A stretch of DNA of 52,209 nucleotides. It comes from Flavobacteriales bacterium. GTDB lineage: Bacteria > Bacteroidota > Bacteroidia > Flavobacteriales_C > GCA-002722245. The stretch is from the NCBI GenBank assembly GCA_029251005.1, contig JAQXEE010000085.1:1-52209 (forward strand). Direction: 5' to 3'. Both the position numbers and the translations under genes were made by a program. The notes under the pieces were generated by a model that was not told the origin of the DNA, made no database searches, and saw only the letters and a program-made list of their open reading frames with translations. This document shows positions 21,902 to 26,828 of the stretch, piece by piece (the stretch's first letter is position 1; each line of letters starts with the position of its first letter).

Positions 21902-22840
21902 TTATAATTTGTAAGATAATCCTAAAGTGATAATTTCTTTAAATTGAGTTCTTGGTCCGTTAACTTCATTAATTCCGTCTCCGTCATCATCTCTCGTAAT
22001 TTTAGCATCGTCATCATAAATAAGGTTCGTGTTAATACTAACAGTAATTAACTTATTGACTTTCATTAAGATCATTAAATCCCAGTTAATATCAATGTTT
22101 TGGGGATTTTTCAAATAATTAGAGAATAAGCCTAAAGTAGTTGTTAATTTAACATTCTCCATGATGTTTTTTTGGTAATTAGCACGTATATACCCTCCAA
22201 TTTCATGTCTAACATGTTTTCCTTCACCAACACCAAAAGCACCTGCATCGGCTAGTTTTTCGTCTAAAACAAAAGTTGACTTAGATGTAATAGGAGAGAG
22301 AAATAAACCTAAAACATCTTTATGTTTGTAGTTCATTCCTCCGGCACCTAATAAATAACCAGGTGCCATAAATGAAGATATTGAAACGGAATCGTTTGGA
22401 TAGTTATATCCGTTAGCAAATTGGGTTTTAAAGTTTAAAAGTCCTGCATAATACCATTTTTCGGTCGCTTTTAGTCCGTACTTGGATGTTAACTCTATAT
22501 TATCATCTGTTTTCTGAAGATCCGCCTTATCTTGTTTAAGTAAACCATACCCCAAATTCAATGTGTTTTCCCAAGATGATTTTTTTCCTGTAAAGTTTAA
22601 GTGAAAGTTTGTTATTCCATTTACAGAAATAGAATTGTTACCTCCTGCAGCCCAGTTTGATAAAGTTACTTGACTAAATCCAAGGTTAAATAATGCTCCT
22701 TTATCCCAAGATTTTACAGTATCCGTTTTCGACTCTATTTTTAAGTTTTTCTCAGCATCTGTAACTTGCGAAAAAGTAGAAATTGTGCATGTTAAAGCTA
22801 TTGCTATTAGTAAATATTTCATCTTAAAAAGTCTTTGCAT
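21902..22840 (-). CDS. DUF3078 family protein, predicted outer-membrane beta-barrel
   Basis: The 312-residue protein has a signal peptide (MKYLLIAIALTCTISTFSQ) and the DUF3078 hallmark GALFNLGFSQVTLSNWAAGG, followed by alternating beta strands (SWENTLNLGYGLLKQ, NIMENVKLTTTLGLFSNYL) and a C terminus ending in an aromatic-rich strand (GLSYKL). This pattern predicts an outer-membrane barrel of unknown function. The first ATG (22840) shares one base with the mscS stop (TAATG), suggesting coupling. A second ATG at 22822 starts directly at the signal peptide and is equally plausible. Confidence 0.87.
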   Translation of the reverse strand: MQRLFKMKYLLIAIALTCTISTFSQVTDAEKNLKIESKTDTVKSWDKGALFNLGFSQVTLSNWAAGGNNSISVNGITNFHLNFTGKKSSWENTLNLGYGLLKQDKADLQKTDDNIELTSKYGLKATEKWYYAGLLNFKTQFANGYNYPNDSVSISSFMAPGYLLGAGGMNYKHKDVLGLFLSPITSKSTFVLDEKLADAGAFGVGEGKHVRHEIGGYIRANYQKNIMENVKLTTTLGLFSNYLKNPQNIDINWDLMILMKVNKLITVSINTNLIYDDDAKITRDDDGDGINEVNGPRTQFKEIITLGLSYKL

Positions 22841-23646
22841 TAATTATTTTGAACGTGAACATCCATTTGAGGGTAAGGGATACTTAATCCTTCTTTATCA
22901 AATGTCTTGTATACATTTTCATTCATTGCGAAGTAAACACCCCAGTAATCTGAAGCATCAACCCAAACTCTAACGGCAATATTAACCGAACTATCACCTA
23001 ATTCACTAACTGCAATAAAGGGCTCAGGATCTTGTTTAATTCTTGAATCAATTTTAATAAGGGTACTTAAAACTTCTTTTGCTTTATCAATATCATCACC
23101 ATACCCAATTCCAAAAGTCCAATCTACTCTTCGAGTTGCTTCCTTTGAAAAGTTTACCATCGAACCAGTTGAAAGTTCGCCATTTGGAATAATAATATGC
23201 TTGTTGTCTGGTGTTTTTAAAATAGTATTGAAAATTTGAATTTCAAATACACTTCCAGTATGCCCCTGAGCAGTAATTACATGACCAACTTCAAATGGTT
23301 TGAAAATAAGAATCATAATTCCACCAGCAAAGTTTTGTAAAGTCCCACTTAATGCTAGTCCAATAGCTAAACCCGCTGCACCTAATATAGCAACGAAAGA
23401 GGTCATTTCAACACCTAGCATACTTAATACACTAATAACCAAAAGTGCTTTTAGAGAAATGTCCAACATGCTTCTTAAAAATGGTTGAAGAGAATCGTCA
23501 ACATTTTTTGAATGCATTACTTTTGCAACAGCCGCAACGAATTTTTTAATTATCCATAGTCCGATGATTAAGGCAAGAATAGCTCCAGTAAGCCGGTAGC
23601 CAAAGTCGAGGGCATAAGTTTTAATCAGATTGATTATTTGTTCCAT
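22840..23646 (-). CDS. mscS: Small-conductance mechanosensitive channel (MscS family)
   Basis: The 268-residue protein has three N-terminal membrane helices, and the third carries the pore-lining Ala/Gly pattern AAGLAIGLALSGTLQNFAGG typical of MscS. It is followed by the beta domain (FKPFEVGHVITAQGHTGSV) and the cytoplasmic vestibule (IIIPNGELSTGSMVNFS). The channel releases solutes on hypo-osmotic shock. The length matches E. coli MscS. Its stop overlaps the DUF3078 start, making a two-gene unit behind a perfect -7 element. Confidence 0.94.
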   Translation of the reverse strand: MEQIINLIKTYALDFGYRLTGAILALIIGLWIIKKFVAAVAKVMHSKNVDDSLQPFLRSMLDISLKALLVISVLSMLGVEMTSFVAILGAAGLAIGLALSGTLQNFAGGIMILIFKPFEVGHVITAQGHTGSVFEIQIFNTILKTPDNKHIIIPNGELSTGSMVNFSKEATRRVDWTFGIGYGDDIDKAKEVLSTLIKIDSRIKQDPEPFIAVSELGDSSVNIAVRVWVDASDYWGVYFAMNENVYKTFDKEGLSIPYPQMDVHVQNN

Positions 23647-24330: not shown

Positions 24331-25044
24331 TTAAAATTCAATTTTTATTGGAACTGTATAAACCACAGGAACTGCTCTATCTAATTGCTTTCCAGGAATC
24401 ATACTCGGTAATTTTTTCACAGCCGCAACAGCCGCATCATTTAAAACAGGATATTCACCTTTCATTGTTGTAACATCGATTACTGCGCCAGAAGGAGATA
24501 CTACGAATCGAACATATACTGTTCCTTCATAACCCATATCTCTTGCAATATCTGGCATAACAAAAGCTTCATGAATTCGCTTGTTTAAAAGCTTTCTTGT
24601 ACAAGCGTTTCTTTGCATATTATTTCCTTCCGAACATTCCTTGTAATGAGGCATATTCTTTACGAAAAATAATGGTGCGGCTTCTACTTCTTCAGTGTCT
24701 TCATCTGAAGTATCTTCTTCAATTTCTAATTCTTCGTTATCTTCTTCTTCGAAATCTTCCTCTGGAATTTCAATTTCATCCTCAACAATTTCTAATTCAG
24801 GTTCTTTTGGTTGTTGTTTTGGAGGGAGAGTAACTGGTGGTGGAATTTGAATAGGTGGTGGAATTAAAGGAGGTAAATCTTCTTGCATTTCATCAATACT
24901 TACTTTGAAATTGTAAGAAACCTTGTCGTAAGATTTTAGAGAGAACGCCACAAATACTAAGCCTGTAATAGCTATAAATCCAAGTGCTAAAAACACTTGT
25001 TTAAATTTATCTAGATTAACATTATCGTTTTTTCTTTTTTTCAT
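24331..25044 (-). CDS. tonB: Energy transducer TonB
   Basis: The 237-residue protein has one N-terminal membrane helix (about residues 13-33), a proline-rich periplasmic stalk (LPPLIPPPIQIPPPVTLPP) that continues into a very acidic Glu/Asp stretch (about residues 80-120), and a C-terminal TonB domain (about residues 155-237, MGYEGTVYVRFVVSPSGAVI and AVPVVYTVPIKIEF). TonB passes proton-motive energy from ExbB-ExbD to TonB-dependent outer-membrane transporters. exbB and exbD are not adjacent, so this is a stand-alone TonB paralogue. Confidence 0.93.
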   Translation of the reverse strand: MKKRKNDNVNLDKFKQVFLALGFIAITGLVFVAFSLKSYDKVSYNFKVSIDEMQEDLPPLIPPPIQIPPPVTLPPKQQPKEPELEIVEDEIEIPEEDFEEEDNEELEIEEDTSDEDTEEVEAAPLFFVKNMPHYKECSEGNNMQRNACTRKLLNKRIHEAFVMPDIARDMGYEGTVYVRFVVSPSGAVIDVTTMKGEYPVLNDAAVAAVKKLPSMIPGKQLDRAVPVVYTVPIKIEF

Positions 25045-25240
25045 TTATCAAAATGATTAGTTGTTTGATACAACGCCATACTTCCCTTAAAATTACTAAG
25101 TAAATTAATGTGAACGTTTATTTTATCAAATTTTTACAAGCAAAAAGCAAATTTGTATTAATATTAACTACTAATATTGCATTTTTATATAATTTTTAGC
25201 CTTTTGGGATATTTGACTTTATGGTAAACAGGTTTTTTCT

Positions 25241-26350
25241 TTGAATAAGATTTTTAAAATAGTTTGCATTGCAATGTGCTTTTTTTTGGCAACTGGATTT
25301 TTCTTTTTTCCAGGTGTTTTCGAAAACAAAGCACAGCTTGCGTTGGTTATTGATTTTTCGAAAAGTAGTGAGAAAACGATAGAATCACTTACTCAAAACT
25401 ATTGGGAGTTATATACTGAATTCAGAGCTCAAAATCCATTTATAGAAATTGAAATCGCTTTGATTGGTTATTCTCGGAAAGCATTCAACGAGAAGAATAA
25501 TTATGTGAAAATAATTTCAGATTTTAAAGACCCTCCCGAGGTTGCATTCGAATATTTAGTTCACAATAAAATAGGAAGCAGTGTTGCCGAAAATAATGTT
25601 GGTTATGCTTTAGATATAGCCTTACAAGGTTTATCATGGAGTAATAGCGAAGCGGTTAAAAAGCAAATATTTACCATTGGGAATGGTGCTATAAATTCCA
25701 GTTTCTCTTTGGCAAAAAAAGTATGTGAAAAAGCTAAAAAACGAAATATTAAGGTTAACTTTTTATATTTACTACAAAAAGACAAAGATAAAAATTTTGG
25801 GTTTTGGAAAACCCTTAAAAAAATGTCTGGAGGAAAATTAACAACACTAGTTCCAAAATACTTAGTTGGTAACGGACTTCTTGAAGCTGAAAATAATATT
25901 GCAAGAATAATTAAGGAAAATGCGGTTTTAAATAGTACTTATGCCTTTTACGGTGATGGTAAAGAGAATTATGATTTCATGAACGATATAGATTCAAAAT
26001 CGATTGCGTTAGGGGACCGAGTTATTTCAAACAGAGTCCTTTTTAAGGCAAGTCCATTTTTTCAAGGTAAAAATGCAAATTGGGATTTAGTTGATTTTGT
26101 TAACTCTAAGAAGAATCAAGATTTTAATTTAAAAAATCTAAGTGTATTTGGGGATTATAAAAATATGGATGAAACACAATTAAAAAAGTCAATATTGACT
26201 TTAGCATCAGCACGGAAATCAAGCTTACAAATCATTAATAAGTTGTTTCAAGAGAATTTACAGATCAATGCATTGCGACCTAAGCAACCGGCTTTTAAGA
26301 AAGATTTTTCAGAAACAATTTTATCAATATTTTCAGAAGGTGGATTTTAG
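25241..26350 (+). CDS. vWA-domain protein with N-terminal membrane anchor or signal
   Basis: The protein starts with a hydrophobic segment (IVCIAMCFFLATGFFFFPGVF) and then shows a von Willebrand A-like strand with the MIDAS motif DxSxS: ALVIDFSKSSEKT (Asp38, Ser40, Ser42). Later MIDAS positions are less clear (QIFTIGNGAI), so metal binding is uncertain. The C-terminal 150 residues match nothing I recognise. The start is TTG, and no ATG in frame gives the hydrophobic leader. It overlaps the cvpA-like gene by 11 bp, implying a common envelope function. The role is unknown. Confidence 0.75.
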   Translation: MNKIFKIVCIAMCFFLATGFFFFPGVFENKAQLALVIDFSKSSEKTIESLTQNYWELYTEFRAQNPFIEIEIALIGYSRKAFNEKNNYVKIISDFKDPPEVAFEYLVHNKIGSSVAENNVGYALDIALQGLSWSNSEAVKKQIFTIGNGAINSSFSLAKKVCEKAKKRNIKVNFLYLLQKDKDKNFGFWKTLKKMSGGKLTTLVPKYLVGNGLLEAENNIARIIKENAVLNSTYAFYGDGKENYDFMNDIDSKSIALGDRVISNRVLFKASPFFQGKNANWDLVDFVNSKKNQDFNLKNLSVFGDYKNMDETQLKKSILTLASARKSSLQIINKLFQENLQINALRPKQPAFKKDFSETILSIFSEGGF

Positions 26351-26828
26351 TTATATCGATTTAATAATACTTATTCCTGTTGTTTATGGGATTTATAAGG
26401 GATTTACAAAAGGGATTATTCTGAGTTTAACTACTCTCATAGGATTAGTTTTAGGAATCTATGGAGGTGTTAAGTTTTCACATTTAACATCTAACTATTT
26501 ATTTGAAGAACATCAAATAGATATTCCTTTATTGGCATTTGCGCTTACGTTTTTACTCATAATGGTAGGAATGCATTTATTGGGTAAGTTACTCAGTAAG
26601 TTTGCGGATATTTTAGCACTTGGTTTAATAAATAATTTGGCGGGAGCTATTTTCGGAGCCGCCAAAGCGGTTTTAATTTTAGCAGTTGTATTGTTGTTTT
26701 TCGAAAACATCAATCAAAAGTTTCATTTGTTAGATATAGAAGAAGTGTCAAAATCTGAGCTTTACGGTTTTGTAAAACAAACCTCCGATATTGTTTTCCC
26801 ATATTTTGAGGAGCTGAAGAATAATTAA
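26340..26828 (+). CDS. CvpA family inner-membrane protein
   Basis: The 162-residue protein has four hydrophobic helices, starting with the CvpA-type N terminus SYIDLIILIPVVYGIYKGFTKG, and a characteristic central stretch LGLINNLAGAIFGAAKAVLI. CvpA proteins were named for colicin V production and are linked to envelope homeostasis, but no biochemical activity is established. The track ORF begins at 26268 inside the vWA gene, and the GTG at 26340 (VDFSYIDL) gives the family N terminus and an 11-bp overlap with the upstream stop. The two genes form one unit. Confidence 0.88.
   Translation: MDFSYIDLIILIPVVYGIYKGFTKGIILSLTTLIGLVLGIYGGVKFSHLTSNYLFEEHQIDIPLLAFALTFLLIMVGMHLLGKLLSKFADILALGLINNLAGAIFGAAKAVLILAVVLLFFENINQKFHLLDIEEVSKSELYGFVKQTSDIVFPYFEELKNN

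Follow-up and report, generated by a model that had tools for sequence, protein, structure and literature searches.

The window that we analysed, a stretch of 52,209 nucleotides from a Flavobacteriales contig, carries a gene for a putative exported vWA-fold protein whose 3′ end runs into a cvpA gene on the same strand. The features of this locus are as follows.

24331-25044, reverse strand: TonB-C-like gene, the divergent neighbour of the vWA gene in the window
25045..25240, no strand: divergent intergenic region from the TonB-C-like gene to the vWA gene, from the gene layout
25241..26350, forward strand: gene for a predicted exported vWA-fold protein, TTG start, 369 aa; open reading frame present
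25241..25321, forward strand: signal peptide-like N terminus (residues ~1-27), from hydropathy and a motif scan; no lipobox
25352..25366, forward strand: DxSxS motif (D38-F-S40-K-S42), intact
25682..25684, forward strand: Asn148, in the place of the usual last MIDAS Asp, after strand 140-147
25880..26347, forward strand: helical domain predicted at the C terminus (vWA protein residues ~214-369), from DSSP on the model and column counts
26340..26350, forward strand: 3′ end of the vWA gene and 5′ end of cvpA, overlapping by 11 bp
26340..26828, forward strand: cvpA, GTG start, 162 aa; open reading frame present

Both reading frames, their TTG and GTG starts and the 11-bp overlap are present as the initial annotation had claimed. 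The TTG start of the vWA gene is conserved in a sister species (87% identical; genome G001, where G is a genome code and G000 the window genome), and the single ATG upstream of it is out of frame. In a peptide-pattern scan of the genome contigs, this sister species (L062) was the sole match. Two observations support the GTG start of cvpA: the orthologue in G002 has an ATG at the corresponding residue (MDFSYIDL), and an invariant D7 lies just inside the start in the CvpA alignment. Comparison with G001 gave NG86 dN/dS values of about 0.23 (0.064/0.275) for the vWA gene and 0.05 (0.019/0.391) for cvpA. For each gene dN is lower than dS, which indicates that both are maintained by purifying selection. 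The overlap is consistent with translational coupling of the two genes, and the region at 25045..25240, parts of which are conserved in G001, is presumed to be the promoter region of a vWA-cvpA operon. An MscS-like mechanosensitive channel gene, read from the sequence, lies a few genes from cvpA in the window (22840-23646, reverse strand) and also in G004.

Predicted products of the two genes

The AlphaFold model of the vWA protein reached a pLDDT of 90.5 and a pTM of 0.86, and Foldseek matched it to solved vWA and I-domains with E values down to 4e-8, Rpn10 and TFIIH subunits being among the closest solved folds. The protein lies below all Pfam cut-offs (best match DUF1194, E = 6.5e-4, 19.4 bits versus a cut-off of 27), and its NCBIfam matches are likewise sub-threshold. 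A PDB sequence search with this single protein as the query returned nothing meaningful, and one with the vWA profile returned weak vWA matches. Among the 50 members of the vWA alignment, 32 matched PF00092 at E<=0.01, and a cvpA-linked relative (L086) exceeded the PF00092 gathering cut-off (27.9 versus 23.8 bits). Together, the model, the Foldseek matches and the PF00092 matches bear out the vWA fold that the initial annotation had assigned; as judged from the model, the upstream gene product is a genuine vWA (Rossmann-like) fold.

That annotation had also described the protein as anchored or exported. Export to the periplasm is predicted by the signal-like N terminus, a hydrophobic stretch that was found in 50/50 vWA members by a crude test of hydropathy rather than a dedicated predictor; residues 21-27 have low pLDDT in the model. 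Anchoring, in contrast, found no counterpart in the window protein: a motif scan detected no lipobox there (some paralogues have one), and hydropathy detected a second stretch of transmembrane strength in none of the 50 members. Near-invariant residues of the C-terminal helical domain, from column counts, are R265, W281-D282-L283 and R325.

As read from the alignment, the vWA metal site is half canonical. The reported DxSxS motif (Asp38, Ser40, Ser42) is intact and strongly conserved, with D38 and S42 in 50/50 aligned members and S40 in 48/50 (Thr in 2), but the MIDAS as a whole, with its five residues, is incomplete. At position 148, that of the MIDAS Asp, 48 of the 50 members have Asn and 2 have Asp. 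The MIDAS Thr position, placed at about residue 116 via the alignment rather than from coordinates, is Ala in the window protein, Gly in 35/50 and one or the other in most members.

The downstream gene product matched Pfam PF02674 with an E value of 1.9e-23 (83.5 bits versus a cut-off of 29.3), and on this sequence evidence it is certain to be CvpA. Its model (pLDDT 91) has a helix at the C terminus in addition to four long hydrophobic ones, and had no significant match in the PDB. Positive charge is concentrated in loops 1 and 3 and negative charge in loop 2 and the tail, a distribution from which both termini, including the conserved C-terminal tail, are predicted to be periplasmic. This orientation agrees with that of MarP, in which a membrane part of this kind is followed by a periplasmic protease. 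CvpA is required for bile-salt resistance in several enteric pathogens, by a mechanism that is unresolved (PMC6705877).

Distribution and history of the locus

We surveyed 60 relatives and then 296 Bacteroidia genomes. The exported vWA clade was assigned in 31 genomes (30 of the 296 plus the sister species G001), counts that leave out a DTSGSM/DATGSM clade of partly lipoprotein type. In 12/31 genomes, from four families, cvpA directly follows the vWA gene on the same strand, with a gap of -20 to +6 bp. The 31 genomes are arranged as follows (f, family code).

Direct pair, f1: G000, G001, G004, G009
Direct pair, f10: G018, G061, G095, G123, G149, G172
Direct pair, f46: G054
Direct pair, f22: G201
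One gene (TerB-DnaJ, DjlA-like) between vWA and cvpA, f61: G133, G181, G292 (intervening genes at L119:5166-5882, L120:3981-4742, L121:5319-6032)
Both genes present but apart (8/31): G030, G050, G055, G072, G104, G158, G222, G275
cvpA not detected (8/31): G005-G008, G012, G058, G092, G120

The neighbourhood survey that the initial annotation had called for thus found the direct pair in four families, and a looser form of it in a fifth, rather than in this genome only. A divergent CvpA overlooked in the eight cvpA-less genomes was ruled out with a lineage-specific CvpA profile. None of 17 further vWA loci inspected directly had an adjoining cvpA, and most cvpA genes and cvpA-bearing genomes have no vWA neighbour; in G002, cvpA was kept and the vWA gene was lost at the same site. 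We found no vWA-CvpA fusion among the long open frames searched, and the DTSGSM/DATGSM paralogue clade never adjoins cvpA in the loci inspected. New matches from a phylum-wide search, whose cvpA neighbourhood falls outside the systematic survey, resemble the DTSGSM paralogue clade.

Adjacency would be expected by chance with a frequency of <1 in 1000 in any one genome of ~3000 genes. On the tree the adjacency label changes six times, and 0/500 shuffles gave so low a number, a result to which near copies contribute. Co-occurrence was rejected as proof of dependence: cvpA is about as common in vWA-clade genomes (23/31) as it is class-wide (195/296). By co-occurrence, the vWA protein and CvpA do not form an obligate two-component system, and since either gene can be found without its partner, the pairing is not obligatory.

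The usual order of the locus is pheS, PPIase, a small lipoprotein, a divergent 115-aa gene, vWA, cvpA and often pgk. The window's genus departs from it, with the 115-aa gene, PPIase and pheS together away from the pair (G000:C109; G004:C7 at 100 kb). In G004 the vWA-cvpA pair is at 167 kb, 67 kb from that block, and in G000 it is on another contig. The presence of the usual flanking genes elsewhere in these genomes indicates that vWA and cvpA came away together, the break falling beside vWA and not between the two genes. The reverse arrangement is found in G005-G008, where the vWA gene occupies its usual locus beside a UPF0102/YraN gene without cvpA; the order in G009 is vWA-cvpA-YraN. Tandem duplicate vWA genes are present at the usual locus in G005 and G007 (L131:4512-6738, L132:3676-5914), both of which lack cvpA.

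The most constant neighbour of the vWA gene is the divergent ~115-aa gene, found beside it in 26/31 genomes, including those without cvpA; the figure for cvpA is 12/31, or 15/31 if one intervening gene is allowed. The proposal that the vWA protein is a 'dedicated' CvpA partner could not be upheld, given this ranking, the eight genomes without cvpA, the eight with the genes apart and the many cvpA genes without a vWA neighbour. Of 57 cvpA loci that lack vWA, 31 also have the ~115-aa gene nearby, so that the vWA-cvpA adjacency may partly be inherited gene order. The ~115-aa gene is a conserved Bacteroidia gene of unknown function (for example L135:1379-1720, reverse strand, with the motif LFLIGVQELG), and the one member scanned had no Pfam match.

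Two further vWA arrangements were seen. Two genomes of one genus of f22 have a gene for a PF04020 (Phage_holin_4_2) protein 20-26 bp downstream of a vWA paralogue (L141:4687-6146 and L143:4463-5967), possibly a parallel pairing of a vWA protein with a small membrane protein other than CvpA. The window genome has a further vWA paralogue (G000:C87:5899-6978, L149; L151) that adjoins a superoxide dismutase-like gene, an arrangement also present in G004.

Interpretation of the vWA-CvpA pairing

The vWA gene and cvpA probably share an operon, because the former directly precedes or overlaps the latter in several families. Such an operon, with some functional tie, is favoured by how tightly the genes overlap in unrelated families and by their joint displacement in the window's genus, whereas the freedom with which either gene is lost and the more constant 115-aa neighbour argue against a dedicated or obligatory partnership. 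We therefore favour, at a probability of roughly 0.45, a conserved and translationally coupled envelope operon in which the periplasmic vWA protein would be a facultative accessory that docks on the periplasmic face of CvpA. Ranking close behind is a serious competitor in which there is no functional tie: an ancestral Bacteroidia locus would have kept its gene order, leaving the two proteins with a shared promoter and independent envelope functions. The whole block is indeed conserved, divergent and unrelated genes included, and the ease with which either gene is lost alone, with eight cvpA-less genomes and most cvpA genes lacking a vWA neighbour, fits this account. However, the window's genus keeps the pair after the rest of the block has gone, and the gene ends overlap or nearly abut in 12/12 adjacent cases, which is more than mere neighbourhood needs. 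It is much less likely that the primary partner of the vWA protein is the ~115-aa gene product or another envelope component, with CvpA a secondary passenger of the operon. The constancy of the 115-aa gene as the immediate divergent neighbour, cvpA-less genomes included, recommends this idea, but the vWA gene parted from the 115-aa gene and remained with cvpA in the window's genus, and the 115-aa gene stays beside cvpA where vWA is absent. Moreover, the 115-aa protein, with no export signal noticed and no Pfam match, is probably cytoplasmic and could then not meet a periplasmic vWA protein.

A separate question is whether the vWA domain is a functional metal-dependent adhesion module or, as we consider conceivable but rather unlikely, a structural scaffold whose metal site has decayed. 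The missing MIDAS Thr and the Asp-to-Asn change point towards a scaffold, as does the company of Rpn10 and TFIIH subunits, proteins that act as scaffolds. Against this, the invariance of D38 and S42 and the near-invariance of S40 and Asn148 indicate selection on the site, and an Asn can still help to bind metal. A scaffold would be compatible with a facultative accessory, since it concerns the mode of binding only.

If the vWA protein is a facultative CvpA accessory, the pair would most likely work as follows. The vWA protein would be secreted via its signal peptide and fold in the periplasm into a vWA domain and a C-terminal helical domain, and CvpA would be a four-helix inner-membrane protein with both ends and its conserved C-terminal tail in the periplasm, as the loop charges predict. 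The vWA protein may then bind the periplasmic face of CvpA through either the half-conserved metal-site face (DxSxS and Asn148) or the helical domain, and so connect CvpA with a ligand, a substrate or a wall component in the periplasm. Such an arrangement would resemble MarP, whose CvpA-type membrane part serves as the tether of a periplasmic protease. The vWA protein would be a facultative partner that keeps a separate role where a lineage has lost cvpA. Co-translation, physical contact, a ligand role and metal binding are all features that we infer for this pair. We also put forward, as a doubtful proposal, that in part of the Bacteroidia a periplasmic vWA subunit binds the C-terminal tail of CvpA and controls it, making the pair a split counterpart of MarP; if true, this subunit would be a direct handle on CvpA function.

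CvpA is widespread, and a partner that is conserved in its operon and has a recognisable binding fold offers a testable entry to its function: to its periplasmic face, its contacts and the generality of a MarP-like use as a membrane tether. The facultative pairing limits this claim, and strains that keep both genes together are the ones to choose.

Comparison with known systems

Enterobacterial CvpA (cvpA-purF; deoxycholate resistance, PMC6705877) is likewise a multi-helix inner-membrane protein of PF02674. Its gene has purF as a neighbour in E. coli, whereas the neighbours in the window are the vWA gene and an aminotransferase-like gene, and no vWA partner of CvpA is described in that study (PMC6705877). 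The initial annotation knew of no description of the pair, and likewise no study in the open-access literature that we searched connected CvpA with a vWA protein. Within the vWA superfamily (PF00092, VWA_2, DUF1194 PF06707), we compared the window protein with BatB of Bacteroides (PDB 3ibs), the anthrax toxin receptor and integrin I-domains. It shares the Rossmann-type fold and DxSxS, but differs in lacking the MIDAS Thr, in having Asn for Asp and in its own C-terminal helical domain.

MarP of Mycobacterium tuberculosis (Rv3671c; NCBIfam NF033740) combines a CvpA-type four-helix membrane part with a protease domain that is periplasmic (PMC4992679). The window CvpA aligns to NF033740 positions 1-123, in the N-terminal membrane part of MarP, with an E value of 1.1e-9 (37.9 bits versus a cut-off of 250). 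A protease domain is absent from this 162-aa protein, and Pfam and NCBIfam gave no protease match in the vWA protein; lacking MarP's defining protease, the window CvpA is not MarP. MarP is one fused polypeptide with a trypsin-like protease, whereas here the periplasmic part would be a separate vWA protein. By analogy, MarP is the nearest functional parallel to the vWA-CvpA pair.
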